From: Owenia fusiformis
Taxonomy: Eukaryota; Annelida; Polychaeta; Sabellida; Oweniidae
DNA: 64,000 nt
Assembly (NCBI GenBank): GCA_903813345.2
Contig: CAIIXF020000010.1
Span: 23,541,740 to 23,605,739 of the forward strand
Reading direction: 5' to 3'
Part shown: positions 30,150-61,581 of the stretch, piece by piece
Layout: each line of letters begins with the position of its first letter
Position numbering within the stretch: the first letter of the stretch is position 1
Made by a program: the position numbers and the translations under genes
The notes under the pieces: model-generated
Databases searched by the model: none
Seen by the model: the letters and a program-made list of their open reading frames with translations, nothing else
What the model was told of the DNA's origin: nothing

Positions 30150-30388
30150 ATGAGTCAAGAAAAAATGGACACCGAGAAAACTCCCAATAATCTAAAAAAC
30201 AATAATTGGGTGAAACTGAATATTGGAGGTCAATTATTTGAAACTAGTCGCTCAACATTGGATCGTCTCGATAGCGCTTATTTCAACAGATTATTGGACC
30301 ATCAGTCGGGATTTGATCAACCACCAGATGGCATCTACAAAATTGACAGAGATCCTGACAGTTTTCGAGTTTTCCTCAACTTTGCCAG
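30150..30388 (+). CDS. T1/cysteine-cluster gene 1, exon 1 (BTB/T1 domain)
   Basis: This encodes residues 1-79 and two bases of codon 80 of a 261-residue product completed by the exon at 48,946-49,492. WVKLNIGGQLFETSRSTL at residues 20-37 is the start of a KCTD/Kv-type T1 (BTB) domain, and IYKIDRDPDSFRVFLNFAR follows at the exon end. The donor is AG|GTTAGT in phase 2, the same place and phase as in the two paralogues downstream. The ATG at 30,150 is chosen because a good acceptor (TTTTGCAG, ending 30,109) precedes it, suggesting a spliced 5' UTR. Frames upstream of the ATG are open to that acceptor, so an N-terminal extension cannot be excluded. T1 domains usually assemble as tetramers or pentamers and can bind Cullin-3; here that role is inferred. 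Confidence 0.85.
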
Positions 30389-33300
30389 GTTAGTGGTATT
30401 ATATACTACATGTACTGATGTAAGTAATGACTTTGTAATAAGTAGGCACAAAGGGCAACAATCTAACATCACAAAATACATATAAAATTAAAAGGCCTAT
30501 TTAGCAGTGCCTAATAGTGCAAACATTTTCCTTGTTTTTGCAACTTTCAATAAAATATGAAAATGAAAAGCTGAATCACCTGATCTTCTACAACAAAATG
30601 ACTTTAACACCATAGACAAAAAACCTGTGGGGACTATAAGGAGTGTTTATAACTCCTTAGAACATAGATATTATAGAAATACTAACATTTGTAAATTCTA
30701 AACTTGAATTTGCCACTTTCCCCAAAAGTGCACCTACTTTGTTAGCAAACCTTCTGATCTGCTTTCAACATTAAATGATCTTGATTTCTTTATCTCTGTG
30801 CTAAATAACTCTAAAGCCTGCACAGATATCCCTTACCCTGATCCCCCAATTTACCCTCTAACTATTACAGATGATTTTACAGTTTTAACATTGACAGAGC
30901 TTCTTTTATCAATAAAATGATTGGGAAGACTGTGCACTTCTTGAATTAAGATGATTTTCTAACTATACCTGTATTCTGATAAGACATGGGTTAAATCAAA
31001 GAATTATCTCTAATGAAATAGTGCCAGGTTCTTGAAAAGGGTTGATATCACTTCATCTACTAAATAGATAATTTAACATTTTGATGGCTTTGGGCTCAGG
31101 TTAATCCAGTTATAAATCCCTTCATAGATACAAGTGTATCAAATTCCAATAGGAATTTCTACATGGTATATTTCAATAGTATCTTATTTGATTAGCCAGG
31201 GAGGGGATTAATCCTTGATTTACTGGTGATAAACATACATTTCCCTCCAAACAGGAACATATTTCATAAAACAGGCTAGGGGATTAATCTTTGGCCCCAG
31301 CAGACTGATTCCCAAATTGAATGTTATTCTACAGTCCTGTACCAACCATCATATAAGCTATAACAATTCTGAAATCAAATCAATTTTTTGTTCTTTCCAA
31401 GATTGCAAAACCAATTTTGTTTATTCATCTTCCCTTTTAATAAAGTACAAGTAGATTGATGTCAATGAAAACATTATCCTAATATTTTACTTTAAACAGG
31501 ATAAAATTTTTTAAAAAATTGCCAAAATATTTCTGACCAACAAAAATACCATCTTGGATTTCCAAAGTATGATGTTTTCATTTCAGATCAAACTGCTTAG
31601 TGAGTATGCCAATTTAGTTCAACAATTTTCATCTTCCTGGTCAAAAAATGAAAAAAAAATCAAATAGTTTGAAATTAATAGAATATACAATTGTATTCAC
31701 AAAACTATTTTCTTCTTTTCACAACCTTTATTCTAACTTCACAGGATGTTTCTGATCACATCTGGACCCCTTTTCAACTGTTAAAAAACTGAACTAAAGG
31801 CTATACCATTGTATTGTTTTTAATAGCTAAATGGTTATATGTACTTCCATGAAGATGTTGAAGAATTCTACAAAAAATGTTTTCTATTTTCATATAGTGA
31901 TATTTATCTTAAGTAGATAGTCTGTGGTTTTAAATGACTCTTAAACACACTCCTATCAATACATCTTAAGAACATGTTAACACCTGAATATATGGGAATT
32001 TTATGACATGACATATATTTGCATGAACTTATTATTCAGACATATATTCTAATTATCTTTCAAATATGAATACTGAAACATTGGCCTTTTCTTTTAATGT
32101 CATGTCGATGTGACATCTGAGTATAAAAAATATCAATAGCAAGTTCAAGATAATGGGAATTTTATGACTTGTAAATTAAAAATTAACGTCATCAATTTCA
32201 ATTTATAATTATTTGTTGGATTCAGTCCAATATTTTAGATATTTTGGTAGCCTGGAAAGTTTTCTAACCTGGTTTATAAATACAACATGAATCACATTCT
32301 ATTTTTATCATTTTTATATATGTCAAGTTTGAAAACCAGCTCATTCATTCAAGTGTATTTGTGTGATAAATATCAGGGGGAAAATAATTAACAATTCCTC
32401 TTCATACTACAAGTCACCAATGAATCATGTTTATATTTTAAACAAATGTTAGGTGAAAACAGTCCTGCACATAACCTCAAGAAATATCTCAATTGAAACG
32501 CAATAAGTACCTCACTTACCATTATTGGGGCTGTGTATGAGACTGTTTCAATAATTAATTTCTAGATTCTCTAGATAATATAAATAATCTAGAAGTAGAA
32601 CAGACAATTCAATTTCTTGGATGCAAATAGATTAAGAAATCATACCAATTTAACTCATTTAAGATGTGTTTGTTAAATAGTCATATTAGGTCACTGAAAC
32701 AATTAAACTCCAGGTATGTTGTTTATCTAGTCATATCTACCCCACATAGAAATCAAAATTTTGCCTGCAGAAAATATTAAAAGTAAGAGTTTTCCATCCC
32801 TCAATAACTAAACAATGAAATATATCACATGCAAAATAATTGCTTATATTACTATTCATATTTAATTAAAAGTTTAAAACACCAGAATCACATTTACCTT
32901 TCTACTCACAAAGTATCAATTTGAACCTGATTGCTAAAGGATCAAGCACTATAACAAACGTTGCATTCATATTATCATAAAACAAAATATTAGTTTAGGT
33001 ATTTAAATGATTAGAATGCCAAGAATGGCCTGTTAAACTCTAAGCTATATACACAGAGTTAAAGTGATGATTTGGTATTTTACAGTTGCATAAATATTTA
33101 TCCTGGAGAAGTACAAGAACCATGATATAGAACTTTGACAGTTTGAAGATCTCCAAAAATAATTCAGTAAAATTACAATAAAACTAGTTGCTTTCAAGTT
33201 ACCCTGTATACGTATTGTACATGTATTTCTATTGGCTAACGTAACAACCCTCTGCCTATATCTAGTGATGCTGACACTGATCTCAATGATCTCTAATGGA

Positions 33301-34836
33301 GATTTCATGTCTTAACTGAGTCTAAATATCATGAATCAGTGACATAATGCAGAAAATGTAGTATCTGCTTTTGCAATTAAAGAGTGTAAAAGTGAAGGTC
33401 TTATATTTGTTATATTCCCATTTGAAATATATGGAAAAGTTATCTCTTAGTACCAAGAGTGTAGTACCAAATATTTATAATACCATGACAGAAAAAATGA
33501 TATCCTAATTCATAGTCTTGCATCAGGTCTCTGGGCCCTATCTCATCCACTTCAACTCCACAAGTGAATGTGACTATGGCGAGACAAGGGCCTGACACAA
33601 GACTACCCAATTTACCATGTACTATTTATTAAAAGGTTACTTTTAAAACTTCAAATTATTAAAAAGTTTATAGTTTTTTTTATTCAAGGGAAAATATCAA
33701 TAGGATTCTGCAGAAAATCTACTTTCAATCTATTAAAATGATTTTGAAAAGTTAACTAATTAGATCAAATAAAATCATTTGCAGGACCAAACTTTGCTAC
33801 TATTCTAGTATCTTTTTTGGCTTGATCTAATTCCAATTCCAATTTCAATGTTATTGTTTGTGGCATATATCCGTGTCAAGATGACCTGACCTGAACTTCA
33901 AAAGTGTCCTGTAAAAAACCGACAGATGTTATTTTATAATAGATAAAGGCCATGATGAAACCAACAGAACTTTTAAAAATCTTATTATGATTATACTCCT
34001 TGAGGCATCTGTCTTAATAATGCACAACTAAACAAAATACTGTCTGGTGAATTATCAATCATAGGACAGGTGACATTAAACTTGAAATCTTCAGGTCAAA
34101 ATATAATATTAGTTTCTGCTTGATTAACAACAAAAAACTGCTGTATGTAAAATTCAAGAGTTATATTAGGGTTCAGACTAAGGTTAAAAACAGGCTTTGT
34201 ATAAAAAACCTCATACCCACCTACCCACGTACGTGGGACATGATACAGTCCTTAAAGGGTTCAATTTTAAAAATTATTAAATCTTAGTTGATGTTGAATT
34301 TTAGATGAATTAATGCACCCATATGCCTTTATCTATGGATCTGTGAACTGTCTAGTCATAAAACAAAACCGGAATTGCAAAAATGTTTAATGAGGAATTC
34401 TGAGGGAGATACAAGTGACAAAACATTGCTTCTGGGACAAGTTCAATAGGCGACTTTGAATGGACCTTTATGCATAGTTCGAAAGGAGAATGGACTCCAA
34501 AGCCTGAAAAAATGAACAATTTTATCTGCTGTATTTTACAGTGTGCCTTTAATTTCATGAATTTTAGCTATTTTGTTTTCAGGTCTGCTTTTGATTTTTC
34601 GAAATGATTTTTGTTGATGGGGTAGTCTTACAACACATCTTGAAGTCCTGCCTTTTCTATCGATCATATAAATATTATTGATCCCTTAATAGCCCTTGCG
34701 TCATACTTTAAATAACCCTATTCACTTTTAATTAACCTTGTATAAAAATTGTTATTTATTGTTATTTATATTTCATTTTGACTTTTGAATCAGAAATCAA
34801 AATTACAAAAATAAACCAAGACTAGGATCTACGAGG
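30389..34836 (+). other. Gene 1 intron, proximal part
   Basis: AT-rich intron sequence without supported exons. It contains a 93-bp hairpin element (33,513-33,605) and a perfect 14-bp palindrome CCCACGTACGTGGG at 34,224-34,237. Confidence 0.6.
33513..33605. repeat. Short hairpin (MITE-like) element
   Basis: TAGTCTTGCATCAGGTCTCTGGGCCC and its imperfect inverted copy GGGCCTGACACAAGACTA enclose about 50 nt of unique sequence. It may be a miniature element or a fossil. Confidence 0.55.
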
Positions 34837-34892
34837 AGAGATATGTGGATGGGGAGATATGTGGATGGGGAGATACGTAGATGGGAAGATAC
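34837..34892 (-). repeat. Short inverted fragment of the TATCTCCCCATC minisatellite
   Basis: GGGGAGATATGTGGATGGGG is the reverse complement of the unit making up the array at 35.4-36.2 kb. It shows that the family occurs on both strands within this intron. Confidence 0.75.
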
Positions 34893-35400
34893 AATAGTAT
34901 AGTCTAAATGGTAATAAAATAGAATTGATATGTTTTGACTATATTCTGCTGCTATAGTTACTGCATTGTTGTTGTATATCATTTGCAATTTAGATTCCTA
35001 ATCCTCAATAAAATAACTGAAATCAAAACAAAACAAAGCAAAACGAAAGTATTAAAAATTTAAAAACAACAACAGATAACCTTTACTTTAAGACCTTTTA
35101 AGAAGGATGTTATACTCTTTAAGATAAATAAATAATAACCGTAATGATTAAGGATTTCAAGTTGACATACATAGATATAAAACAATTATCAATTATTCAA
35201 AATTGAACTTCAAAGTGGCACATGCTATATTACCTAACAACATGAAGTAGCAAATTAAGTATCTACATTACAAGGTCATATCCTCTACACCTACCAGTTT
35301 AGTTTGAATTAAAGTTAAGAAAACTTCAGACATATTTGATTTCACAAGATTTGGAAGGATGTCATCCTGAGGATCTTGCATCAAGTTCTTGCAAAACTCC

Positions 35401-36195
35401 CTCATCTTTGTATCTCCCCATCCCATCTACAGTATGTATCTCCCCATCTACGTATATCTCATATTTGGATCTCCCCATCTTTGTATCTCCCCATCTTTGT
35501 ATCTCCCCATCTACGTATATCTCCATATTTGGATCTCCCCATCTATGTATCTCCCCATCCCATCTACAGTATGTATCTCCCCATCTACGTATATCTCATA
35601 TTTGGATCTCCCCATCTTTGTATCTCCCCATCTTTGTATCTCTTCATCTTTGTATCTCCCCATCTACGTATATCTCCATATTTGGATCTCCCCATCTATG
35701 TATCTCCCCATCCCATCTACAGTATGTATCTCCCCATCTACGTATATCTCATATTTGTATCTCCCCATCTTTGTATCTCCCAATCTATGTATCTCCCCAT
35801 CCCATCTACAGTATGTATCTCCCCATCTACGTATATCTCCATATTTGGATCTCCCCCACTATGTATCTCCCCATCCCATCTACAGTATGTATCTCCCCAT
35901 CTACGTATATCTCCATATTTGGATCTCCCCATCTTTGTATCTCCCAATCTATGTATCTCCCCATCTACATATCTCCCCATCTATGTATCTCCCCATCCCA
36001 TCTACAGTATGTATCTCCCCATCTACGTATATCTCATATTTGGATCTCCCCATCTTTGTATCTCCCCATCTTTGTATCTCTTCATCTTTGTATCTCCCCA
36101 TCTACGTATATCTCCATATTTGGATCTCCCCATCTATGTATCTCCCCATCCCATCTACAGTATGTATCTCCCCATCTACGTATATCTCATATTTG
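35401..36195 (+). repeat. TATCTCCCCATC minisatellite, left part (split by a retrotransposon)
   Basis: Words TATCTCCCCATCTTTG, TATCTCCCCATCTACG, TATCTCCATATTTGG and a longer CATCCCATCTACAGTATG module alternate in recurring blocks, giving a higher-order structure. The array has no stop codon in any plus-strand frame, so it mimics three overlapping ORFs of about 270-300 codons; none is likely to be a gene. It is interrupted at 36,196 by the LTR element and resumes at 44,966. Confidence 0.95.
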
Positions 36196-37247
36196 TGTAA
36201 CCATGGGGGAGTGGACGTGGGTTACATTACAAATCGAATTAACAGAATAAGAATATAAAATGTATTTAAAATGTATTCAACCCTATAATCAATCAAATGA
36301 TCAAAATGTTATACAAATGAGCTAAATCTCTCAACTGATCTTAATACTCAAGCTACCTAAATCACTAACTCACTTAAGACCAAAACCACAAATGCTTAAG
36401 GCTGTGCACCTAGTTTGTACCCCAGAGCTGCAAATAAAAGTAATGTACAAATAGCTGTTTGTAAAGCAGGTAAAATACAATAATGAAACATACAGTTTTA
36501 TGATAAACTTCTTAGTACTAAGGGCTATGGGACTTAAAGGGCCCTTATTCTGTTCCCAAGAAAACCCTTATACTGTGCTTGACGCACTACATACATTTCT
36601 CTATTGAAATTACCAAATATAAATATAATTCAGTTACTTTATGCAAAATGTACCATGAAGGTTTACAATTGAGCAATATAAAATAAAATGTGGAATGTAC
36701 CTTATAAAATAAGCTATACAGTCTCTGAGTGCTAGCCATACATCTTTAGTACGCACACAGTGTCTCCTGTAAAACGTGTGTACCAAGATAAGTCATATGA
36801 AATGACATAAATGGTGGTTTTAATTGTAAATGAATAACGCACAGGTGCATGAAATGAACATCACCTTATGGACAAATGTTCCAACACATTGTTCAAGTTT
36901 TACAAAGAAATTACTCAAAAGTATTTGAAATACAAAATAATATTTACATCAAATTGGAGCTAAAGTTATGGAGAATAAAATGAATACAATTGGCATAATG
37001 TTGGCATATTCTAAAGGGTAAAAAGTGACAAAAATATATGAAAATTCCTTACCATGTCTTTACAGTTCAAAATCAAGGCTAGCACTGGTGATTTGGAAAG
37101 TAAATGCAATCAAGGTTAATCCCCTTGCATGTGCACACTGTGTGTAAATCAAAGCTATTCTCCTAGCAGGGTTTGAAAATATAATTGAAATACATAAAAA
37201 TATAACTCTCCACAGTAGGGTTTGAAAATCTAAAACATCCTGTCACA
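36196..37247 (-). repeat. 3' LTR of the Ty3/gypsy element
   Basis: On the plus strand it starts TGTAACCATGGGGGAGTGGA and ends CATCCTGTCACA. It is identical in length to the other LTR, with one substitution noticed. The stretch beside it inside the element (37,248 on) has no clean polypurine tract; the nearest on the minus strand is AGGGGAGGATAA at 37,392-37,403. Confidence 0.95.
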
Positions 37248-37635
37248 CACACGCGGACTCGTCATAATTTGTCCCAAATTATCCTTGCTCTTGCTACCAC
37301 AGGAATTATAAAATACATTAAATTATAACAACAAAATGTCACACACACGTGGAACATAGAAAATAACATTATGAAATACCATTATGAAGGATTATCCTCC
37401 CCTAATTAACATCCACTACCTTAAAATGGTAGTCAATAAAATTATGTTCTGTTAACAAAGTAACTTTTTATATATGTATTGTGTTTCTTTTATAGTATAA
37501 ATAACAGTAACATATAACAGTAATTTGAATTATTAAAATAGAACAATAGTTAAGAAAATAACATTTATTAAAGAACGCTTATCGCAAATCACTAAACGCG
37601 ATAAAATATATATCTCAATTTTTCTGACATCATGT

Positions 37636-40600
37636 CTACATCATGGCATTCTGAGCTGCTAATCTTTTTGATCTCCTGATAGTCTCAGTTTCAGGCACAT
37701 CTTCATGTTTGTTTTGTTTTATTCCTCTTACTTTCTGTGGAACTTCTTTTAAGTCTACTATGTTTACAGCTTTTCTCGCTCCATACTTATTTTCTATCGT
37801 GTAAACATCATTTTTCCTTTGTACAACTGTATATATGTCTTCTTCAAAAGAATCTTGGATTTTATTTCTTCCTTGTATTCTCTTCCTGGTAAGAACTTTT
37901 GATCCTATTTCTATAACAGTCTCTCTAGCTTTCTTGTCAAAGATTTCTTTTCTTCTGTCTGCTTCTTTGTCTATTTTCATTGCTGCTTTTGTGTGTGCTT
38001 CTTTCAATATTCTTTCATGTTCTACTATCCAACTTTTGTTCTCTTTCTGAACCTGTTCTTCTTTTTCTTTATCCTTATCACAAGTATCAACATCGTCAAC
38101 ACCTAGTTGAATGGATATTGGAAGTCTCGGTTCTCGACCAAACATCAGAAAGAAGGGGGAGTATCCCGTAGAACTGTGTGGTGTTGTGTTATAACAGTAG
38201 GTCAGTTCTTTGATATAATCAGGCCATCTTCTCTTCTTGTCTTGTTCAAGAGATATCAGAAGGTTGTGAAGCATCCTATTAAATCTTTCGCATTGGCCGT
38301 TTCCTGAGGGGTGGTATGGCGTTGTTCTTGATTTTTCTATATTATACATCTTACAAAGACACTTGATGATCTCACTCTCGAAGTTTCTTCCTTGGTCGCT
38401 ATGTATTCTGTGTGGGATGCCAAATATATGGATAAATGACCTCACTAGTACTTTAGCTACAGTCTCAGCTTTTTGATCTCTGGTGGGTTCTGTGATTGTG
38501 AACTTTGTGAATGCGTCTGTGATCACAAGTACATTTTCCATTCCATTGGATGCTTTTTCAAGAAGAGTAAAGTCAATAAAGACTAGATCTAATGGTCTAT
38601 ATGCTGTAAGTCTGCCTAGAGGTGTAATAACTTTCTGGTAAGGCATCTTTCCGAACAGACATCTGCTACAGGTTGTGATATATTCTGTGACATCTTGATG
38701 AAGTTCTGTCCAATAGAATCTTTGTTTGATGAGCTTCTCTGTTCGTTCTACTCCTTGGTGTCCTGTGAAGTCATGTAGTGACTTAAGAACTTCTTCCTTC
38801 AGAACATCTGGTACAACAGCTTGGAATACAGAAGTGTCATTAAAGTGTGATTTTCTGTACAGGATTTCATCTATCATTACAAGGCTTTTCAACTGTTTAA
38901 CCAATTTTCTTTGACTTTTTGTGAGTTTCTTCATTGCTTTTGAAGTAAGTTTGTAGTTAACTTTTACCATCTCAGTTATGAGAGCGATATCCCTGTCATT
39001 TTGCTGTAATTCTCTGTAACCATCCTTCGTTATTGTTGGTAGAAATGAAGATGCTACATCTTTTGATATTTCTGCTTCTATTTGTAGTGCTGCAACTTCT
39101 TTTTGTTTGGCTTCTTTTATTTCTTCCATCTCAGGTAAGTATGTGATGTCACACTGTTTGGCAAGTATCTGCATTGCACTAACTTCGAAATCTTCTTCTC
39201 TATCATCTTCTTCCGAGTCATGTTCTAGTCTAGATAGGCAGTCTGCAGCTGTGTTGGTTTTACCAGGTTTGTATTTGATGTCGAAATCAAAACTCGCCAG
39301 ATCAGATATCCATCGCTGTTCCAAAGCAGGTAGTCTCTTCTTGTGCATGATGTACGTTAAGGGATTATTGTCTGTGAATACAGTGAACTTGGTTCCTAGT
39401 AAGAAGTCTCGAAATTTCTCTGTTATGGCCCATTTAAGTGCGAGAAGTTCTAGTTTCTTGGATGAGTAGTTTTTCATATTTCTCTCTGCACCTCGGAGTG
39501 ATCGACTGCCATAACCTATTACTCTCATTCTGCCATCTTGAAGTTGGAAAAGTTCGGCTCCAAGGCCCGTATTGGAAGCATCGGTTTCGAGTATAAATGG
39601 TTTGGAATAATCTGCAAAACCTAGACATGGTGCTGTTGTTAGTCTTTCCTTGATCATCTCCATAGCAGCTTTACATTCTGAAGTCCAAAGTTTCTCTATG
39701 TTTGCTGTCTTTTTGCTGGATTTGTTGAGAACCTTCTTTACAAGATCATGTAGGGGTTGAGCTACAGAAGCATAGGATTTGATGAAACGTCGATGATATC
39801 CTGCAGTTCCTAGGAATTTTCTCAAGTCTTTTAAAGTATTTGGTTCCTTCCAGTTGACAATCTGATCTATCTTGGATGGGTCTGGTTGAATTCCTTCTCC
39901 TGAAACTTTGTGTCCCAAGTAGATTACTTCTGTTTTGAAGAAATGGCATTTTCGTAGTTCCAATTTGAGATTGTGTTTCTTTAGTATCTTGAAAACTGTT
40001 TCAAGTCTGTCAATGTTTTCACTGATTGAAGAGGAGTATACGAGTAGATCATCTAAATAACAGAGTACAGTTTTGAAAAGCTCTTCACGAAATGCAATCG
40101 TCATGAGTCGTTGGTATGTTGAAGGCGCATTAGATAGTCCAAATGGCATTCTCATATATTCGTATAGTCCTAGAGGAGTAGTACATGCAGTCTTGTGGAT
40201 ATCTTCATCGATGACTTTCACTTGCAAATAAGCACTTTGGAGGTCGATGCAGCTGAATATCTTCGAGTTTAGAAGGGAATCCATGCTCTCTTGGATTCTT
40301 GGAAGTGGAAAAGAATCTCTAGTGGTGTGTTGATTCAAGCGTCTGTAGTCCACACACAGGCGTATAGATTTATTCTTCTTCCTAACGATCACCACTGGAC
40401 TGGCAAAAGAACTGTTGCTGGGTCTAATGACTTTCTTTTCTATCAGTTTATCTATGTGCTCCTTTACTTCCTCGAAAATGGCAGGTGGTATTCTTCGGTA
40501 CGGTTCATTTATTACTAGGCCGTCAGGTGTTGGAATACTGTGCTGCAATAAGTCAGTACATCCTAGATCGGTTTCATCAGTTCCAAAGATGTCATGGTAT

Positions 40601-42726
40601 GTTAAAAACATTTCCTTCGCCTTTGTAGATTCCTCTTTAGTTCCTTGGAAGTTTTTCATGATGTTGTCGATTTGTTCCATCACTTTTGTGTTGACAGGAA
40701 GGTTGTTCTTGTTTGGTTCACTCAGATTCAATTCAGTTTCTTGATTTGGTGACTTTGTGTTTTGCTGTGTTATTTTGCTATCTTGTATATTCATTTCATT
40801 TGTGTTACTGCAGTATGAGATTCTGCAACAGCTGGCAGTAGCTGGTTGTATTTTCCCAAGTGGCGTTCTTGTGGAAATAAAGATATCACTCTGTGAAGTA
40901 TTTAAGATGTTCACAGTTGATGTCCCAGAACTCGCATCTATGAATCCCGTTATCAGTTGAACATTTCCAGGTAGAGCTGTATCTAATGGTTCTACTACAC
41001 CATTCCCTCTGAAACTTCCTGTAGTGACTTTCACGTCAGTAGTTGATGAAGCTGGTATTAAAACTTTTTGAGGTCCTTGTAATCGAATTAGGTTTGTCTT
41101 TTCCATTAGTTGTATTTCCTTGAATTTTGGTAGGTTTTTCAAGATATTCATTCCAATAAGAAGATCAGGGCAGTTTCCATCCTCTGCGTGAACAAGGATT
41201 CCAATGTCTTTCATCTGTTGTCCCTCAATCTCGACTGTCTCTATCATCAATCCTTGATATGGAATTTGTAGGTTATTTGCTGCTTTCAGGTCCAATACTT
41301 TGAAGTTTTCCAGTTCAATATTGAATTTGTTTTGGTATAACTGTTTTGACATCAGTGTCACACTGCTTCCTGTGTCGATGACTCCTTGGATTATTTGGTT
41401 TCCAATTGTTATCATGGTTTTTGGGGCAGTTCCTAATATTTTGTCCATCTGGAAGTTATTTGGGTTGCTTTCACTTGAGGATGTGATAACAGAATTGTTG
41501 GTGTTGGTTCCATTGTTCCCATGGTGATTGTTGTTGAAATTAGGTTGTCGATTTTCTTGTTGTTGTTTACTTCCATTGTTGAAATCTCCACGTTGTCCTT
41601 GGTTGCTATATCTTGATCCGAAGAATCGTCTTCCTCTTCTCTGGTTGAAATTCCCTCTGTTGTTATTGAAGTTGTTGAATCCTCTGTTGTTGAAGTTTCC
41701 TCTGTTATTGAAGTTTCCTTGGTTGTTGTAGTTATCATGTTGGTAGTTTTGTTGACCAAAGTGTGTATTTTGTTGATTGTTCTGGAATTCACGGTGTTGT
41801 TTGTTTTCCTCTTTCAGAGTGTTGATTTCTTGTTCAAGTTTGTTCTGTTTCTCCAACATCTGTTGCATCATCTTCTGTAACGTCTTATCATTGGTGTCTA
41901 TGGTGTTTGATGTGACGGTTGATTTCTTTGTATTCTCCATCGATTTTGAATCATTCTCATTGAATTCATACTGGAAAGCGACATCTCTTAACTTCTGGAA
42001 TGTTGTTGTACTGTCTTGGTTATTTAGTCTCCTTAGTTCCCATCTGAGTTTAGGACATTGAACACCTTCAATCAGCTGTTCTTTAAGTAACTGGTCCTCA
42101 TTCTGTAGATTACTTTGTGTTTCTTTAATTCTGTCCATGCATTGCATCAGAGATTGTGTGAACTGTGCTACGGATTCAGTTGCGTCTTGTTTCCTTGTGT
42201 AGAATTCAGTGTAGCTTTTGTGTGCTGAGGTTTGACGTCCAAAAACTCTCTTAAGTGTTTTGAAGATTTCATCTGGTGTTGTATTTGGGCCTAAGTATTT
42301 AGCTTCTCTCCGTGGTATTGGGTCAAGGTGATAAATTAAGAAGTCCACTCGGTCCCTCTCACGTATGTTCCTGATTGCAATATTCGCATCCTCGCACCAA
42401 TCATAGATGTCTTGTCCCTTTGATCCATTGTATTTACACAGTTTTGGAAGTTTTGAGTTTCCTTGAAGACCTTTGTTTCTTGGTTCATTGTTGTCATTGT
42501 CTCGTCCAGTGTTGCTGTTATCACTGTCAGCTTCAGGTGGGTTGCCTAACAAATCGACATTGTATTTCTTTTGAAGTTCAGCTAGTTGTCTTTCCAGAGA
42601 TATCATCTGTAGTAATCCAGCTTTCTCCTCCTTTTGTTCTTGTTCTAAGATTTCAGCTATTTCATCGATTTTCTTTTTCGCATCCTCTCCTATCGCATCC
42701 TTGGGTTTTGTTCCGCCAGTAGCCAT
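37636..42726 (-). CDS. Gag-pol polyprotein of the Ty3/gypsy retrotransposon (1,696 residues)
   Basis: Gag and Pol are fused in one uninterrupted frame. Order: a coiled-coil-like start (about 20-55); a Gag capsid-like region from about 95; an Asn/Gln/Arg/Gly-rich basic stretch (about 318-415) where a CCHC knuckle would be expected, none being visible; an aspartic protease with DTGSS (Asp451); reverse transcriptase with Asp828 and YLDD at 890-893; RNase H with TDAS (Asp1049); integrase with an H-x4-H, C-x2-C zinc site (His1318, His1323, Cys1353, Cys1356) and a D-D-35-E core (Asp1385, Asp1444, Glu1480). The protease-RT-RNaseH-integrase order is that of Ty3/gypsy. All catalytic residues are present and there is no stop or frameshift, so the element may still be able to move. 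No chromodomain or envelope is recognised. The start is the ATG at 42,726, which is preceded by a long untranslated leader. Confidence 0.97.
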   Translation of the reverse strand: MATGGTKPKDAIGEDAKKKIDEIAEILEQEQKEEKAGLLQMISLERQLAELQKKYNVDLLGNPPEADSDNSNTGRDNDNNEPRNKGLQGNSKLPKLCKYNGSKGQDIYDWCEDANIAIRNIRERDRVDFLIYHLDPIPRREAKYLGPNTTPDEIFKTLKRVFGRQTSAHKSYTEFYTRKQDATESVAQFTQSLMQCMDRIKETQSNLQNEDQLLKEQLIEGVQCPKLRWELRRLNNQDSTTTFQKLRDVAFQYEFNENDSKSMENTKKSTVTSNTIDTNDKTLQKMMQQMLEKQNKLEQEINTLKEENKQHREFQNNQQNTHFGQQNYQHDNYNNQGNFNNRGNFNNRGFNNFNNNRGNFNQRRGRRFFGSRYSNQGQRGDFNNGSKQQQENRQPNFNNNHHGNNGTNTNNSVITSSSESNPNNFQMDKILGTAPKTMITIGNQIIQGVIDTGSSVTLMSKQLYQNKFNIELENFKVLDLKAANNLQIPYQGLMIETVEIEGQQMKDIGILVHAEDGNCPDLLIGMNILKNLPKFKEIQLMEKTNLIRLQGPQKVLIPASSTTDVKVTTGSFRGNGVVEPLDTALPGNVQLITGFIDASSGTSTVNILNTSQSDIFISTRTPLGKIQPATASCCRISYCSNTNEMNIQDSKITQQNTKSPNQETELNLSEPNKNNLPVNTKVMEQIDNIMKNFQGTKEESTKAKEMFLTYHDIFGTDETDLGCTDLLQHSIPTPDGLVINEPYRRIPPAIFEEVKEHIDKLIEKKVIRPSNSSFASPVVIVRKKNKSIRLCVDYRRLNQHTTRDSFPLPRIQESMDSLLNSKIFSCIDLQSAYLQVKVIDEDIHKTACTTPLGLYEYMRMPFGLSNAPSTYQRLMTIAFREELFKTVLCYLDDLLVYSSSISENIDRLETVFKILKKHNLKLELRKCHFFKTEVIYLGHKVSGEGIQPDPSKIDQIVNWKEPNTLKDLRKFLGTAGYHRRFIKSYASVAQPLHDLVKKVLNKSSKKTANIEKLWTSECKAAMEMIKERLTTAPCLGFADYSKPFILETDASNTGLGAELFQLQDGRMRVIGYGSRSLRGAERNMKNYSSKKLELLALKWAITEKFRDFLLGTKFTVFTDNNPLTYIMHKKRLPALEQRWISDLASFDFDIKYKPGKTNTAADCLSRLEHDSEEDDREEDFEVSAMQILAKQCDITYLPEMEEIKEAKQKEVAALQIEAEISKDVASSFLPTITKDGYRELQQNDRDIALITEMVKVNYKLTSKAMKKLTKSQRKLVKQLKSLVMIDEILYRKSHFNDTSVFQAVVPDVLKEEVLKSLHDFTGHQGVERTEKLIKQRFYWTELHQDVTEYITTCSRCLFGKMPYQKVITPLGRLTAYRPLDLVFIDFTLLEKASNGMENVLVITDAFTKFTITEPTRDQKAETVAKVLVRSFIHIFGIPHRIHSDQGRNFESEIIKCLCKMYNIEKSRTTPYHPSGNGQCERFNRMLHNLLISLEQDKKRRWPDYIKELTYCYNTTPHSSTGYSPFFLMFGREPRLPISIQLGVDDVDTCDKDKEKEEQVQKENKSWIVEHERILKEAHTKAAMKIDKEADRRKEIFDKKARETVIEIGSKVLTRKRIQGRNKIQDSFEEDIYTVVQRKNDVYTIENKYGARKAVNIVDLKEVPQKVRGIKQNKHEDVPETETIRRSKRLAAQNAMM

Positions 42727-43893
42727 TATGGTTTAAAAATATTTTATTTCGCGTACGTAATCGCGTAATTAATTGCGTAAGTAATGACGTAAGTATAAAA
42801 AGCGTAGTGATTTGCGAATCGGCGCGTAAAATGTGAACCAACACACTTAAAATTGGTGAAAAATTTATCACATTATAACATCCGAGCGTACGATAAAAAT
42901 ATGTGATATTTTGTCAGGGATACTAAACAATTCACATCACACACTAAACAATATATACACTTTATAGAATATTTTATAAACTCTGAGGTACTCTCTTAAA
43001 GTATAAGCTCTGGTTATAAATGAATGTTAAGGATATAAGACATCAAATATGGCAAGGCTATCAGAAAGATGTCCAGGCTACTAAACAAAATGATACTCAT
43101 TTGCAAAAATGATTGTCCTGTGTACTATAATACTATTGGACAAATCATATGAACCTGGTACTAGATAAAATGTATGTCCTGGTTTACTTTAGGTTCAGTG
43201 GAATTTGTAAAGACAAAATATAAAATATATGTCCAGGCTACTAATCAAAAATATAAATGTACACTGACAAGGGTATAGAACAAATATGTGAGCTGGGCAA
43301 CAAGCAAAATATGTGCTTTGAGAACTAAACAAATCATTTGTCCTGGATACTAACCCTAAATTTTAATCATGTTCATGGCTAAATCAACTGATGCATAATT
43401 GCATGTATTTATTGAACTGTGTGAGTCAACTTTTGCTTTCACTCACAAAATACTATTAATTGTCACCTGATATTGACTGGCTATTCAAAATATTGAGCTA
43501 TAAATAGCTGATTTATGGTTTTATATGAGATTTCATTTGTTTACATTTGTCACTAATTGAATTTCTCACATAGATTGTTCCAGTTGTATTTCTGTATGTT
43601 CCTGTTGAAATTCAAATATTCTAGTTGAAATTCAAATGTTCTTGTAATTCTAATGTTCTTGTTGAAATTCAAATGTTCTTATGAATTGTTGTTAATTATT
43701 GTCACAATGTGGTAATGGACTGCATTTACACTTTTGTTGTTCATCTTTGTAGAACCAGTGTCCATTGGATGTCTCAATCGTATCGTACCACTTACTTGAT
43801 TTACTCGACTTCCATCAGTAGCATATATGTGGATTTGGTCAAAAAAATTCTACCTATCAATAACACTATCCTAACAAAATCTTAACATGAAGT
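42727..43893 (-). other. Untranslated leader of the retrotransposon with degenerate internal repeats
   Basis: About 1.17 kb separates the 5' LTR from the gag start. On the plus strand, between about 43,068 and 43,365, TGTCCAGGCTACTAA-like words recur (TGTCCTGGTTTACT, TGTCCAGGCTACTAATC, TGTCCTGGATACTAA) at irregular spacing of roughly 50-130 bp. Close to the gag ATG, at 42,750-42,830, GCGTAA/ACGTAA words are repeated. Leaders of such elements commonly hold packaging and translation signals; a function here is inference. Confidence 0.6.
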
Positions 43894-43911
43894 GTAACAC
43901 CCGCAGTACCA
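43894..43911 (-). promoter_or_regulatory. Candidate tRNA primer-binding site
   Basis: On the minus strand, two bases inside the 5' LTR, the sequence TGGTACTGCGGGTGTTAC begins with TGG, the complement of a tRNA CCA end. Position and first bases are right for a primer-binding site; I cannot name the tRNA. Confidence 0.65.
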
Positions 43912-43913
43912 AA

Positions 43914-46315: not shown

Positions 46316-46340
46316 TATTCCGGTGTGGTGTAGTGGTGGT

Positions 46341-47061
46341 GTGGTGTTGAAAATTGGCCCAAGTTGATAATAGCAGTTCTTGAAATGCTGCAGGACAGTT
46401 TTAGACTTATAAAGCCCATATTCCCTGGATGTTACAATAAATGATTATCTTCAAAATAAGAAGGGTTAAATTTTTATTTTACCTTCTTCCAAAGAGAAGT
46501 TTGTAGTTTGGAAATTCCCCATTGGCTGCCATTATAAACGGCTATCAATATGGCTTTACTAAAGTGTCCCTTTCTCAAAAAGTCTGCAGTGGAATTTTGT
46601 AATATTGCAGATTTGTATAGATAATATATTGATGTTAAAAAATCTAACAGGTGCAATTCTAAAAATTTCTTATTTATGATTTATTTAGATGTTAAAAACT
46701 ATAAAAAAAACTATACTGAACCCCATGTTAATTTATTGATAATATACTGATTAAAAAAATCAAACAGGTACATTTCTAAAAATTTCTTATTTTTGATATA
46801 TTTAGCTGTTAAAACTATAAAAAAACATACTAGGAGAATGGGCATTATTGCATTCTGATTTATCAGAGTCCCTCTTTACCTAACGCTTTTGAACTATTCC
46901 AAAAGGATAGTAAAGGCTGTGGATCCCACAATGGCATTATTGCTTTAAAACTGTTCTGCAGGGGGTCTTTTGAAGATTGATAAATTAACATAGAGCTCAA
47001 TGTAAATGAGCGAAATTTACGAGGCCTGCTATTTTCAACTGGAGCCACTTTTCAACACCAC
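46341..47061. mobile_element. Inverted-repeat element, GTGGTGTTGAAAA arms
   Basis: GTGGTGTTGAAAATTGGCCC...AGTTGATAATAGCAG at the left is matched in inverted order at 47,020-47,061. Inside, a block of about 115-130 bp with TTTCTAAAAATTTCTTATTT-like sequence is present twice (about 46,610-46,715 and 46,735-46,830). It abuts the previous element. Confidence 0.65.
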
Positions 47062-47064
47062 TTC

Positions 47065-48945
47065 GTTAGATATCAAAAAATGTATGTATTAATGATACTT
47101 AAAAAATGGTGCTTTTATATAATATAGCAAGTGAATTTGAACTGACCCCACTATGACTAATATGTCATTGTAATGACATCAGAGAGTCAATAAAACATAT
47201 ATATAATATATATATATATGATAAAAAGATAAATAAACAAAATATGAAAAGATTTAAAAACTAGACATGTTTCTATATTTCCTCAGTAGTTTTTAAATTT
47301 TGATAACAATTCAACAGTTTTATTCAATGTGACTATGACCAAACATGTGACCAAATATATGTAAAATGTATTGTAAATCCATATGATATACATAGTCTTA
47401 TATTCATCCCCAAGCATCACAAGACCCCAAGCCCCTTTACATCTAAAGATTGACATAAACTGTAAAATTGAAAAAGTGAGAGACCCTTGGATTTAGAATG
47501 TCTTGGACTAATATAAATGTAGTCATTCATTATTATATATTATAGCAATAATGGTTTTCCTATTGGCAATTCTAACTGCACATCAGAATGATAGGAATTG
47601 TGGCAATTTGTTTAATGGTGTCTAACTCAGATTCTCTAAGTGCTAATTTGTGTTAATTAGTCTAATTAATTTGGCATTGGGAATGTTGTTATTATCTGTT
47701 GCCAATAGAGTTCTATGGGCCAAAATGATTCTCTCGCATAAAGTAGTTTTGATAAAGCACAAAGGACAACATAAGAAAAACATGAAAAATCATTATAATC
47801 GTTAATCAAAAATTATTATTGATAGTGATTATGCTTAATACCAAGTATTTGGTGTTAATATTGTGATAATACATGTAATTATATCATCTGATTACTCAAC
47901 ATACATGTGGAAATATATGAAAATAGAAAATACAAAAAGCCTGCATACTAACACTTGCATGTATATGTGACATAAAAAACAGAGATTCAACATACTTTCT
48001 CATTACAAGTAAAGTAATAGTTTTAAAAAAGCTTTTTAGATATTTCTGGTTTCCATTTCCAGGAAACATCCAGTAAAGAAATCAAAATATTTGTTGAAGG
48101 GGAAACATAATCTTCACGAGCTCAGTTGCTCTGCTAACATCATTTACCTGCACAGTTCATCATTTAGTCAGAATAGTCTCAAATCTCAATGTTGCAATAA
48201 CCAATTCCCTTCAAAAATATATTGGAAGCATTTCTGAATCTTGGCAAAAATACTAGCATCTTAAACACTATCCGACGATAAGATAATGATTCAATATTCA
48301 AAATTCATGAAGGTTGTCATAGCATTTAAGGATAAAGTGCATTTTAATATTCATGAATTGTAAAGGGTCTCTATCTCGTGGCTTTGGCTAAGATACTGTA
48401 CCTGCTAACGATTACTGGTGGGTTGTTATCTTTCATCTTTGTCTAATTAGTGGCAAATAGCACCTTGTAGATCAGTGGCAACTGTCACTTCTCGCACAGT
48501 TCTAACATAGCTGGTGAAATACCTACCAGTAGCCCAAGCCTCCATTACATAGAAATGCACTTTCAATGATTAAAAGACCAAAACAAGAGAAATTGAGTTC
48601 AAATGATTGATGTTTATGTAGTTGTATTAGCTTGCCTCTTGTGTATTTTTTGTATATTCCCTATAATTATGTTCCAGGTCAAATACAAATGTGTCATTTT
48701 TATCAATTTCAATTAAAGAGGGATAAAAAGGATACTTTCATTCAGCTAGACATTGCATTTAAAGCAATTAATTCTAAACTAATATTATTTCAATGTCTAT
48801 AAGCCTTAACAAAAAGGTGAAGATCTAAGCGCTCATTTTATTTTTTTCACAAAATTTAAATGTACCCCTTTAAAAAAACAAAAAACCATTATCAAACTAA
48901 CATCATTAAGAATAAAACTAATAAGGAAACACTATATGATTGCAG
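47065..48945 (+). other. Gene 1 intron, distal part
   Basis: AT-rich, with a short (TA)n run near 47,198-47,219. I see no exon before the acceptor at 48,945. Confidence 0.6.
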
Positions 48946-49492
48946 ATATAACAGAATTGAATGCCTACAACCTGAACTACTTCTAGAAGATGCACAGTTC
49001 TACCTTATGGGACAAAATGTTCTCAACAGTATACAGGAGTACATAGACAGCACACAACATAGCAGTAAAGCTGCAGTCCAAAACACAATACTTATGAGGC
49101 ACCCTGTCTTCTCAAAAGCATCCGATATCAAAGACAGCAATAAACTCGACAGGGATCTCCTGAAATACTGTCACCATAACAAAATTGGGATATATCTTGG
49201 CGAAGACCTAATCAGGCATGGTATGGTGCGTAAGCCAGTTGAGGATATCAAATGCATTCCCACAGGAATTCACACTAAAACATGTGATGTTTTGAAGTAT
49301 ATTAAAGGTTATAAGACATATGTCACAGAAAAAAATTACATTTTTTTAGATGAACTTGAGGATAAGTCATTACAGTGTATGGAGTGTAAAGTGGTGATTC
49401 CAATAAAACGTGACCTAGGGTGGTGTCACAAGTGTCTTTTGTGTTACAAGTGTCAGGGTCCATGGTGTGTCTCACCAGAAAGTTTCTTATGA
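48946..49492 (+). CDS. T1/cysteine-cluster gene 1, exon 2 (T1 end, HHN block, cysteine cluster)
   Basis: The acceptor ATTGCAG|A joins exon 1 in frame, giving FAR-YNRIECLQPELLLEDAQFYLMG, the KCTD-like end of the T1 domain. Exons of 239 and 547 nt total 786 nt, a 261-residue protein. HHNKI begins near residue 151; a KG-rich segment leads to the cluster at residues 224-254: CMEC, 12 residues, then WCHKC, C, C and C, followed by SPESF and the stop. It is more diverged than genes 2 and 3 but keeps every cluster cysteine. The 18.6 kb intron, swollen by a retrotransposon, is the odd feature. An open frame extends upstream to 48,860 but lies in the intron. The spliced join is inferred from homology and phase, without transcript data. 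Confidence 0.82.
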
Positions 49493-53083: not shown

Positions 53084-53595
53084 TGTGATGGCACCAATTA
53101 AGCAGCCAAAAAGAGATTCAAATCTTTGGCATATAAGCTCCAAGGAACAAGGGGAAGACATCAACTTGCAAATATCGGTTCTCTGCAAAGCAACATTTTG
53201 CCTTTTGGTAAGTGATTCCATAATTGTTGCATTATTGTATGATTCAATAATTACATATAATTGTATTAACGTTAATTTGCAAAATAGAATTGATCAAAAA
53301 CAATTTTTACATAAAAAGTTGATGCATTCTTTTTATGTAAATCAAACTTTACAATTAATGATTCTAAAATTAAAATTTAAGGATCGCATAACATAAAAAA
53401 TATTAATAATTCTAAAGTATATTTTATTATGAATGTAGAATTTAAACAGGTTTTATAGTGCAAGCATGTTGGAAAGGTGTGTGGCATGCATCGGAAAAGT
53501 CAAAGATGCATTGCATGCACCTGTGATACCACAACAGAATCAGCTCAAATCCTCTATTTCAGGTTATCCGTATATCAGGCAATATATCAGGCAAA

Positions 53596-54723
53596 ATGGG
53601 AGAAACAGTAAAACTGAATGTAGGGGGAACAGTGATGGAAACGAGCACTGAAAATTTGGAAAAACTGGGGCTATCAGCATTGCTATCCCAGAAGGCATCG
53701 AATGATGGAGCAATATTTATCGACCAAGATTCAAACATGTTTAAAGTGCTACTGACTTGGGCAAGGTAAATGAGCCAAAAACTAAATGTATTTATAAACA
53801 TTTATTTTTTATACTTACAAAATGCATATAACAAAACTTTTTCATTTTTTACACATACATACATGTATATGTAGTAAAACCTGTATATATGAAACACCGT
53901 TGGTGCCTCTAAAAGGTGTTCCACTTGGGGGGGGGGGGTGTTGCCCTTACAGAGGTTATTTCAACATAAAGTCAATTGGTTATGAGACTATGGAACGTTT
54001 CTACTTCTGAGGTGTTCCATTTTATAGGTTTTACTCTATTTCATTGACTCAGTGGGTGATGGAGGTTCTTATGATGACTAAGTTACATTTTTTAAATCAC
54101 AATTCTCTTTCTTTTTCCTGATTCATGCATGAATTTACCTGACTAAATGTGTCATATTATGACATTTCAGGGTAGGCGTGTTAGAAGTCCCAGAGGGGGT
54201 AATGACTGTCAAGCAACTTGTTGCTATGGCGAAATCTCTAAAAGTCAATGAAGATGTCATGCATGCCATTAATGATCACGCCAATCATATTAACTCCAAA
54301 CAATATATCAAAGAAATAGAAAATAGGCTTGATTATGATATGAAAGATGATATAAAAGACCCTCATGTTGATCTAGCACACCATAATATAATCGAAATAG
54401 AGCACAAATTTCTCAGACGAGATTGTAAAGACACACGCTTTTGGAACATGGTTAACATCTCTTGCATTCGACATTTCAGCCACATTCGTGATACTCCAGA
54501 CATAATGACCCATTTTAAAGGGTGTAAAAATAAAATATTTGTCTACAAATATGAAATGAAGAACATGAGTGTTGAATGCAAGATATGTAGACGGGAATTC
54601 CCTATAGAACCCAATTTGGGGTGGTGTCATAAGTGTCAGAAATGTGTGTCATGCCAGAACAATACGCTGTGTGTCAGTCCTGAGAGCTTTAATAGAATAG
54701 ATGAACCATATTCTCTCTCATAG
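53596..54723 (+). CDS. T1/cysteine-cluster gene 2 (two coding exons, 240 residues)
   Basis: Exon 1 is 53,596-53,765 and exon 2 is 54,171-54,723. The intron (GCAAG|GTAAAT...TTTCAG|GGTAGG) is in phase 2 and the join is 723 nt. MGETVKLNVGGTVMETSTENL at the start is a KCTD-type T1 domain without the N-terminal tail of gene 1; the T1 fold ends near VEVPEGVMTVKQLVAMAKSL. A conserved HHN-x-I block, IxCI, and KG..K.FVYKYE follow, then the cluster at residues 193-224 (CKIC, 12 residues, WCHKC, C, C, C) and SPESF, with a 10-residue tail. AATAAA at 54,737 comes 14 nt after the stop. A leader exon ending at 53,207 splices in frame to an acceptor at 53,562, so up to 51 more N-terminal residues are possible (ATG 53,088). 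Function unknown; an oligomeric adaptor is an inference from the T1 domain. Confidence 0.85.
53876..54035. mobile_element. AGTAAAACCTGT MITE inside the gene 2 intron
   Basis: AGTAAAACCTGTATATATGAAACACC and its inverted partner GGTGTTCCATTTTATAGGTTTTACT enclose a short interior with a G-run. It resembles the element at 20,570-20,719 and occupies a good part of the 405-bp intron. Confidence 0.75.
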
Positions 54724-58267: not shown

Positions 58268-58289
58268 CTCTGTGTCGTGACATCACTAA

Positions 58290-58461: not shown

Positions 58462-59110
58462 GTGAGTCATTTAGATTAACAATAACTACATTTTATGTTA
58501 TATTTTCCTTGACTTTAACAATATGCTATTCAATATTATATTGTAATATTGTATAACAGACAACTGTATAGAGTTACTATGAGAATATTACAATATCTGT
58601 GCATTGTTTAAAACAGAATCTGATCATTCTGTGATCTTAGATTGATAAACACAGAACATGTTAATAGCATTTGAAGTTAAATATTGTTATAACACGAGAG
58701 TGATGTTTTTGATTATATTCTATTCAATTTGATTTAATATTTCTGACTAGCTATTTCTTGAATTATTTTTCTCTATCAATTTCAAAGACCAATTAGATAT
58801 TAACTTAAAAGACTTGATAAATTCATAATGTCATTCAAAGGGAATATGCCAAATCAGATACTGCAAGCTTTCCTTTTTTCTATGATTGTGAAAACTTAAA
58901 CATAAATGAAAACCTATACAAAAACATTAGCAGAAGTAAATTCATGCTTTTCCAGAAAAAACAAATCTCGAAGACGTGGTTTTGGATTACATAGTAATTG
59001 ATAAATGAGTCAGAATGTGGCCAAAATTTGAAATACCAGAAGTGCATGCACATAAGGTCCCTTCTGCACCACCCTGTGAACAAATCTTCTCTGGGGTAAA
59101 GGCGACCATT

Positions 59111-61581
59111 ATGCATCAAAAATGGGTGAAACTCAATGTAGGTGGAACAACAATTGAGACAACTGTTCAGACCCTCAGGAAACTGGGAAGCAAAGTGATA
59201 GAAGTGATGCTGTGTGAGACACCAGAAGATGGCGTGGTGAAGATTGATCAAGACCCACAAGTCTTTAACGTGCTTCTCAATTATGCAAGGTAATAGAATT
59301 AATGCTTTGTATGCTAATTAATTGGTATTTGTAAAATCATATCTTTTTTGTTATAATATTGAATATGAATTTTACAGAATGTTATTGTTTATTTTCCTTT
59401 ATATTAGCTATCTTTACAAAGAATTGCATTGACATATTTTTAGGTTAATGTGTTGTGCTTTATTTCTTTACATAAACATCATAACGGTAATAACAATGAA
59501 AACTTGTTACTCGCAGAATAAAAATATTTGTGGTTTTTAAACAGAAACAACCACTTGACACCTTTTAAAGTTTACACAATCATAACAACATAGGATTTGC
59601 GTTTGAATAACCTAAACATCTTTTTAGGATTGAAATTTTGATGAACAGATTTTTATGTTTTGACTATCATTACAAACTCATCAAATAATTATTGTTGCGG
59701 ATGACAATTTTCTTATTATTAAACTCAAAATTTTTCCTAATACATTTGAATTTTTTCACCTGGTATAACTGAATGATATTGTCGTTTTGAATATTATATA
59801 TAGCTAACATTGAACATCATCATCAGCTGTTATTATGTGTCCTCTTTATGCCTCAAGATTTAAATGGAAAATGTTACCATAGCAACCAAAACAATTGAAT
59901 ATTATTATGCATCCAATTTCTTTGTTAAAGGTTTATAGCCAACAGCGCGTTCTTTTCATAATTTGTTGTGAACTCTTTGTCTTTTGGCATAAATAAGCGA
60001 GTCCATGGGAAAATTATAATTATTCTTTGTTTTGTGTTTCATCTTTTAATTTTATGAAGGGTTTTATGACTGGAATAAATTAGAGCTCATTTTGTGTTTT
60101 AAGGAGGAGCCTGTATGCATGTACCTATATGTGTTTAAATGCATTAGCATCAGCATTGATATGTTAACTTAGAAATTCATGTGGATTTTAAAACCAATGC
60201 CTAATTCTAGGAGACACGTTTCCCAAAAATAAAATTTTCTTTTTTATATTATTTTCGAGATGGAGCTCAAATACTGAATATGACATTTATATCTACTGAC
60301 ATACAACCCCTCCAAAAGTTATGCAACACCAGATCTCCTATTGGACAACCATGGTTAAAGCCTGTTTTTTAGAAAAAAGATTTTTTTTTATATATTTCTG
60401 ACCTGATTATAAACAGTGTCAGGGTTGCCAAACTTTGAAGAGGAGTTTATATTCTGCTGATGATTCCAATATCCTTTCATTGTTGAAATGGTTTGTTTAA
60501 AATGTTTTCTGTACCACCTTGATGTAAAACAATCTATATATGTAAATTAATGGAAATTAGTTCCACTCTGAGCAGATAGTTTGAGGCAATTCCATACATA
60601 AAACATTTTTAACTATTGTATGCTGATGATAAACATGTATTCATATACATTAGTAAATAAAATGTGTAGGTTTCAAGTGACTGCTTAAAATGACATTTTG
60701 TAATGAATCTTTATTGTCAAATAACTTTTAGCATATCTTAATCTTTATGTTCATGTTCATATCCAATAACATTCTCCATAGCCATTCATTGAAAAAAACT
60801 CTTAAATATGATATCTCTGCTTTTTCATCAATTCTTAAGTTCTTTTTTTGTGGCAGATTCTTTTTTTAAATATAATTTTAATTGAATGTTTCCATCAATC
60901 TGACTTGAAAGAACACTGTAAATATGCTAAGTCATTAAAGGGCAAGATATAAAATGAAAATTTTTAATGAATGGTTTAATCAAACCTTGCATTTAATTGA
61001 TAGATTCTTACCTCAAACTGAATTTCAGGACTGATGTGTTAGAGGCCCCAAGAGACAAGGTCACACCAGGTCAGCTAGTAACCATGGCAGAATGCTTGCA
61101 GTTCAGTCAACCAATCAAACAAGCTGTAAGAGAATATGCAAACATGGTTACCAAGAGGCAGAAACAACAAAGAATCCAACAAGCACTTGTGAACCAAGTC
61201 ACCCACCCAATGAGCTATAGAGATGCCGATGACATGGATGACCGAATGATGCGTTTAATGCATCACAATCAAATCAACATTTCGAAAACATACATTCCTA
61301 GATCTTGCCCAAATAAGAAATTCTGCCATCGAGTTGATATTATGTGCTGCCTTGATTCAAATCATGCAGATGGTCAATATGATATTTCTAATGATGTGAA
61401 GGGCAGTGAAAGCAAGGACTTTATCTATGAATATGAACTAGAGAACTTAAAGGTTGAATGCATTCAGTGTCGCAAACAGTTGGACTTACAGCCAAATCTT
61501 GGTTGGTGCCACAAATGTAAATGTTGCTGTACATGTCAAGATAGCTTCTGTGCAAGCCCTGAGAGTTTTAAAAAGTGTTAA
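59111..61581 (+). CDS. T1/cysteine-cluster gene 3 (two coding exons, 243 residues)
   Basis: Exon 1 is 59,111-59,289 and exon 2 is 61,029-61,581; the 1.74 kb intron (GCAAG|GTAATA...TTTCAG|GACTGA) is again in phase 2, and exon 2 is 553 nt as in gene 2. MHQKWVKLNVGGTTIETTVQ begins the T1 domain, KIDQDPQVFNVLLNYAR closes exon 1, and TDVLEAPRDKVTPGQLVTMA continues the fold. Then come MHHNQINI, VDIMCCL, KGSESKDFIYEYE and the cluster at residues 204-234 (CIQC, 12 residues, WCHKC, C, C, C) with SPESF and a final KKC. Three further cysteines (225, 227, 243) lie in or after the cluster. An in-frame ATG at 59,015 could add 32 residues. The T1 start suits the KCTD class; the tail is not one I can name. 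AATAAA at 61,729 is the likely poly(A) signal. Confidence 0.87.
59290..61028 (+). other. Intron of T1/cysteine gene 3
   Basis: AT-rich, no embedded exon or clear repeat seen. Homologous in position to the gene 2 intron (405 bp) and the gene 1 intron (18.6 kb). Confidence 0.8.

Follow-up and report, generated by a model that had tools for sequence, protein, structure and literature searches.

In a stretch of 64,000 nucleotides from the annelid Owenia fusiformis (the window; G000:C10:23541740-23605739 of the 498 Mb genome), three plus-strand genes encode proteins in which a T1 domain of the KCTD type is joined through a middle block to a C-terminal cluster of cysteines. Together with two further genes on the same chromosome they appear to form a KCTD subfamily with a new tail, confined to Owenia as far as our searches reach. 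Our tentative reading, to which we give somewhat less than an even chance, is that the T1 domains of this so far Owenia-only subfamily form a ring showing tails with probably two zinc ions to a partner, and that two of the members are probably Cul3 adaptors. The genes lie at 30150-49492 (gene 1), 53088-54723 (gene 2) and 59015-61581 (gene 3). An earlier sequence-only reading of the window had proposed all three; they are present where it placed them, and their exons are joined in the deposited Owenia fusiformis proteins, which are identical letter for letter to the spliced genes (P0003, P0002 and P0001 for genes 1, 2 and 3, respectively).

Conservation and distribution of the cysteine tail

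The tail has the pattern C-x2-C-x12-C-H-x-C-x2-C-x2-C-x(4,5)-C, and its seven cysteines and one histidine are kept in all five members; the last spacing is five residues in gene 2 and four in the others. The alignment of these eight residues in genes 1-3 is as the sequence-only reading had described it. The LGWCHKC that it called invariant and the SPESF that it noted behind it do not vary among the three window genes but are not kept as such in the other two members: the distant member has IGWCHKC and TPDTF, and the fourth gene of the array has LGWCHVC and lacks SPESF. Across the five proteins, 11 of the 38 columns of the cysteine region are invariant (seven C, G, W, H and Q), compared with 10 of 80 in T1 and 6 of 75 in the middle block (H, H, N, I, C and D, including the motif HHN). 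Eight of the 212 gap-free columns are invariant cysteines (seven in the tail and one in the middle block), whereas the maximum in 20,000 residue shuffles was one; cysteine conservation is far beyond chance by these shuffles, which take no account of shared descent. Moreover, pairwise identity is 37-68% in the cysteine region and 18-46% elsewhere (T1, 21-46%; middle block, 18-31%). This implies that the putative ligand pattern has outlasted most of the remaining sequence.

The family had been taken to consist of three genes. A genome search with P0004, the deposited protein of the distant member, and a whole-genome DNA pattern search raised this count to five. All lie on chromosome C10, and an array spanning about 36 kb contains four of them, which supports the proposed expansion in this lineage. 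The distant member is located 18.6 Mb from the array on the minus strand (C10:4966529-4971889) and has three exons. The fourth array gene begins 1.3 kb beyond the window end, with exons at 65319-65572 and 65966-66410 in window numbering (C10:23607058-23607311 and 23607705-23608149; tail matched at C10:23607826). It has an intact open frame and an intact cysteine cluster, and protein searches with the family tails turned up no deposited protein for it. The DNA pattern W-C-H-x-C-x2-C-x2-C occurred at 16 places in the genome, and the full cysteine motif was found only in the five that are family tails; seven of the 11 non-family places lack the upstream C-x2-C-x12. A match of P0004 at C10:30246267 (E 0.054) was rejected, its frame carrying retroelement-type CCHC knuckles.

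Word-based searches, which can miss distant relatives, found none outside Owenia. The tail of gene 3 as a single query retrieved only itself among 25 candidates, and a profile of three tails retrieved four proteins, all from Owenia, among 300 candidates. Viral contigs gave 45 pattern matches with no relative among them. The search with the C-terminus of gene 1, which returned itself as the one candidate, was uninformative on absence, since it missed the known relative P0004. Among the literature matches listed, with subscription journals mostly outside the scope, there was neither a KCTD protein with a zinc-binding tail nor an annelid KCTD expansion.

When the tail was compared with domain libraries, no match reached the Pfam or NCBIfam cut-offs, in agreement with its earlier description as unrecognised. 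Several matches were set aside as chance: a TraR-type C4 zinc finger in gene 1 (0.018 and 0.033), zf-CRD (best 0.0096, in one member), HypA (0.33 to 3.6), phrog_4466 (1.1e-4, in gene 3 only) and phrog_20891, 'HNH endonuclease' (best 0.0082, in four of the five short tails), the last two being explained no further than by shared cysteine pairs. The PDB structure search was filled by T1 matches and barely probed the tail.

The tail could also be a shortened LIM domain with a protein-binding role, consisting of a first zinc module (in which C takes the place of H, as it does in one PINCH LIM) and a cut-down second one, which we consider unlikely. The two are alike in the order C-x2-C...W-[CH]-x2-C-x2-C-x2-C and in a weak profile likeness. 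Three of the four PDB matches of the five-tail profile (E up to 10) were LIM proteins (PINCH, 0.53 and 0.6; FHL3, 5.9), and hhalign against 20 Owenia LIM domains gave a probability of 34.5 (pairwise E 4e-4, 28 columns); this score was attained in 3 of 200 and in 28 of 1000 shuffles of the columns that preserved the cysteines. However, none of the PDB E-values was significant, the PINCH rows passed only as sums of two stretches, and one of three shuffled-profile controls also drew a LIM protein (11 residues, E 1.2; the other two drew none). In addition, no LIM row appeared in the Pfam scans of the family, where the HMMER filters discard weak matches, and the family is absent from the genome's LIM places, among the 66 listed. 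LIM domains have eight ligands, long loops in both zinc modules and a last C-x2-[CDH]. In all five Owenia tails the first loop is shorter, with 12 residues, and the second module is cut short, its last cysteine following after 4-5 residues; neither the long loop of the second module nor a final C-x2-[CDH] is present.

The T1 domain, the proposed ring and possible Cul3 contacts

The Pfam family BTB_2 (PF02214; cut-off 21.4 bits) was matched at 54, 27.9 and 30.6 bits in genes 1-3, respectively, and above the cut-off in all four deposited members; the T1 of the fourth array gene is degenerate by alignment (NLQG for NVGG). We built a tree of 37 T1s, namely the five of the family and 32 of at least 42 BTB_2 places in the genome (of the other ten listed, three belong to the family itself and seven, being partial or duplicate, did not enter the tree). 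The five members formed one group (100/98), with the fourth array gene on a long branch. The family was grouped with five KCTD-like T1s (99/96), apart from 27 Kv-like T1s, both names being our own labels, as none come with the genome. The best PDB matches of the whole gene 1 protein were KCTD17 (E 1.6e-12) and KCTD5 (E 5e-11). The tree and these matches bear out the KCTD-type T1 of the sequence-only reading and support, at the level of sequence, a KCTD-type rather than a Kv-like domain.

Among known systems, the KCTD2/5/17 clade, to which Drosophila Insomniac belongs, has T1 sequence and fold in common with the Owenia family. In contrast, the KCTD5-like places of Owenia (C9:27384364 and C5:28511508) have introns elsewhere than the family, and the T1 intron position of the family did not occur in any of six partial places outside the family whose exon edges were read, two of them KCTD5-like. 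KCTD1 and KCTD15 resemble the Owenia family in combining T1 with a tail; to our knowledge, neither has a cysteine cluster of the Owenia type. The KCTD1 tail differs from the Owenia tails, being reported to share the GFRP fold as well as an ion channel (PMC7618933). A role independent of Cul3 is a further point of possible likeness, the KCTD15 BTB being reported not to bind Cul3 (PMC4431850). Foldseek rows against KCTD1 covered about 180 columns but at a root-mean-square deviation of 9-11, and nothing was concluded from them.

By analogy with KCTD2/5/17, T1 would assemble the subunits of the Owenia family into a closed ring, on which several metal-bound tails would be held out by the linker and the middle block. 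With seven cysteines and one histidine, the tail has eight possible ligands, enough for two zinc ions, and it would fold around metal, probably two such ions. One zinc would be held by the two C-x2-C pairs 12 residues apart, and the other by the last three cysteines together with the histidine or a middle-block residue. The tail copies on the ring would grip a partner protein. Gene 1 and the distant member, with aromatics at both of the sites matching Cul3 contacts, would probably be Cul3 substrate adaptors through which the partner is ubiquitinated, and the remaining members would probably be Cul3-free scaffolds or mixed-ring partners. The ring and the domain joining rest on homology and annotation; the metal, the partner and the outcome we infer.

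The Cul3 part of this proposal builds on two published contact sites, and several observations weigh against the proposal as a whole. The substitutions F47A and F105A are reported to weaken Cul3 binding of Insomniac (Inc) (PMC11790235). The spacing of the residues given in that paper served to locate the corresponding positions in KCTD5 (F-x2-R and E-F-Y-N). At the residues that would match them by alignment, gene 1 and P0004 both have Y and F, gene 2 has A and S, gene 3 has V and C, and the fourth array gene has V and Y. Aromatics are found at both sites in two of the five members, at one site in one and at neither in two. The first concern is Cul3 binding itself: an aromatic at the second site is reported not to suffice for it in KCTDs, where the variable alpha2-beta3 loop also matters (PMC4431850). 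Compared with KCTD5/17, the family has a shorter loop, most markedly in genes 2 and 3 and the fourth array gene. The second concern is the specificity of the motif: the remaining four non-family matches to the pattern belong to a tandem repeat on C11 with a 57-base unit and have the upstream C-x2-C-x12 in an open frame, so that this element alone is not family-specific. At these places it arises from the repeat period, and the last cysteine at 4-5 residues is missing. The repeat itself (C11:19376008-19376268; L074-L078) has an open frame repeating WCHLC[FY]WCHTCNRW[FI]HTFY and matches part of the cysteine motif. The third concern is the predicted structure. In the AlphaFold model of gene 3 (four-row alignment), T1 is good and the first part of the cysteine region fair, with short strands at 233-235 and 242-244 on either side of the first C-x2-C. 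The tail as a whole is moderate (predicted local distance difference test, pLDDT, of 85, 81, 76 and then 52 in 10-residue blocks), and the model of the gene 1 tail alone is of low confidence (mean 38.8), with strands at matching places. Together the models hint only weakly at a knuckle carried by a beta hairpin; a zinc ribbon would have two C-x2-C knuckles on such hairpins.

The Cul3-adaptor role raised by the sequence-only reading may therefore not hold for all members: given the contact residues and the alpha2-beta3 loop, if any members bind Cul3 we would expect gene 1 and P0004 to do so, but not all five. The view that all five are ordinary Cul3 substrate adaptors, with the tail as a fast-evolving substrate domain, agrees with the common action of KCTD proteins with Cul3 reported in two sources (PMC5664961; PMC7618933). 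We nevertheless regard it as rather improbable, because the first-site aromatic is missing in three of the five members, and the second-site aromatic too in two of those three, and because the cysteine region is the slowest-changing part of the proteins and not the fastest. A bolder version of the ring proposal, in our estimation a long shot, divides the subunits, all with a common metal-binding tail, into those able to bind Cul3 (gene 1 and the distant member) and those with decayed Cul3 contacts (genes 2 and 3 and, in part, the fourth array gene). If both kinds joined in mixed rings, the decayed subunits would modulate or prevent the ubiquitination of a target held by the tail, and this tail would represent a new two-zinc domain that arose in this annelid lineage.

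Probable metal binding and likeness to known cysteine modules

The cysteines could instead hold an iron-sulphur cluster or serve as a redox switch. The run C-x2-C-x2-C-x2-C, followed by a cysteine with x-[ST]-P after it in four of the five members, loosely resembles ferredoxin-type cysteine runs, but the usual ferredoxin motif spacing does not fit the tail. Moreover, the two C-x2-C pairs 12 residues apart suit zinc knuckles better, and the gene 3 model sets the first of them between two short strands. We consider this alternative improbable.

Still less probable is a derivation of the tail from the C-clamp, the module through which TCF/Pangolin and SLC2A4RG bind DNA in a zinc-dependent manner; the proteins would then act on DNA, in the way of a transcription regulator with a T1 domain. 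This reading would be in line with KCTD1, reported to work as a transcriptional repressor and not in cullin ligases (PMC7618933). In the first profile search of the PDB, the SLC2A4RG C-clamp was the sole match (E 3.6). The alignment is gap-free, with the same C-x12-C-x2-C-x5-C spacing (present in all five members), a W before the second cysteine and a Q after the fourth; hhalign gave a probability of 47.5 against SLC2A4RG, and 10 of 1000 cysteine-preserving shuffles scored as high. However, this comparison was made with one sequence only, picked after the search, and the Owenia tail has extra cysteines, seven conserved ones as against four in C-clamps. DNA binding by Pangolin is reported to need a basic stretch between the third and fourth cysteines (PMC3896468). 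Such a stretch is absent from the Owenia tails (KCCCT, QKCVS, LLCYK, LLCYR and RLCRN), where one of the five residues is basic in four members and two of the five in the fourth array gene.

The likenesses to LIM and to the C-clamp are weak, and the defining features of both fail. Their scores were controlled against column shuffles alone. As both targets were chosen after the search and share the W before a cysteine, and as the controls were of this single kind, we take the likenesses to point to a zinc module and not to ancestry.

Gene structures, surroundings and biological meaning

Gene structures in the window (positions in window numbering)
Feature	Positions	Strand	Description
Gene 1 exon 1	30150..30388	+	Start codon and first T1 part; BTB_2 4e-12 on open frame 30027-30485
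Gene 1 intron	30389..48945	+	18.6 kb, phase 2, GTTAGT...TTGCAG; splits T1
Gene 1 exon 2	48946..49492	+	T1 end, middle block with HHN, cysteine tail, stop
Gene 1 cysteine cluster	49376..49486	+	CMECKVVIPIKRDLGWCHKCLLCYKCQGPWCVSPESF
Gene 2 exon 1	53088..53207	+	N-terminal 40 residues of P0002; exact splice match, donor GTAAGT, acceptor TTTCAG
Gene 2 exon 2	53563..53765	+	First T1 part; BTB_2; exact match to P0002
Gene 2 exon 3	54171..54723	+	T1 end, HHN block, cysteine tail, stop
Gene 2 cysteine cluster	54577..54690	+	CKICRREFPIEPNLGWCHKCQKCVSCQNNTLCVSPESF
Gene 3 exon 1	59015..59289	+	N-terminus and first T1 part; BTB_2; splice identical to P0001
Gene 3 exon 2	61029..61581	+	T1 end, HHN block, cysteine tail, stop
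Gene 3 cysteine cluster	61459..61569	+	CIQCRKQLDLQPNLGWCHKCKCCCTCQDSFCASPESF

The splice between T1 and tail is in phase 2 and at the same T1 site in genes 1-3 (GTTAGT/TTGCAG, GTAAAT/TTTCAG and GTAATA/TTTCAG, respectively). The intron follows the codons for [NT]-[FWY]-A and splits the next Arg, and the last exon completes T1; the exon edges of P0004 fit a split at the same place. For gene 2, the 5' exon had gone unmentioned in the sequence-only reading. That gene prediction falsely linked T1 to the tail, for which the length of the gene 1 intron and the transposon within it might speak, is very improbable. The phase-2 junction, read base by base, is identical in all four genes of the array and fits the exon edges of the distant member, the exons are joined in the deposited proteins of four members, and the tail exon of gene 1 itself encodes the last part of the KCTD17 T1 match (residues 81-103). 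For the published Owenia annotation taken as a whole, RNA-seq support is reported for 31,678 of the 31,903 transcripts (PMC9977687).

The gene 1 intron holds a minus-strand Ty3/gypsy-type long terminal repeat (LTR) retrotransposon at 36196-44965, with a single frame of 1,698 residues at 37636-42732 (protease, reverse transcriptase, RNase H and integrase). Its LTRs of 1,052 bases (36196-37247 and 43914-44965) differ at one site, which suggests that the insertion is recent. A 16-base minisatellite (TATGTATCTCCCCATC) is found at 35433-36150 and 44968-45477, no more than about 50 bases from either end of the element; because the same repeat adjoins both ends, the element appears to have landed inside a minisatellite array. 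Upstream of the gene array there are plus-strand exons of a ubiquitin-activating E1 at 3258-3509 and 8162-8416 (UBA_E1_SCCH and E1_UFD). Long and well-preserved tandem arrays occupy 6411-7867, 15444-16530 and 55055-55975, with units of 86, 43 and 38 bases and 97, 92 and 95% matches, respectively, and the last of these is situated between genes 2 and 3. Two arrays of 15-base units at 62879-63030 and 63613-63795 (AGACAACTCATCCCA and TTGGGATGAGTTGTC) run in opposite directions and are separated by 0.6 kb. Scanning the window for Rfam families and tRNAs gave no match.

The interest of the family is a specialist one and lies in a likely domain birth, not in a demonstrated new mechanism. A tail with eight invariant metal-type residues, so far found in one annelid only, would add a new type to the tails of KCTD proteins. 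In addition, the small array would exemplify retention of the partner domain alongside drift of the surface that faces Cul3.

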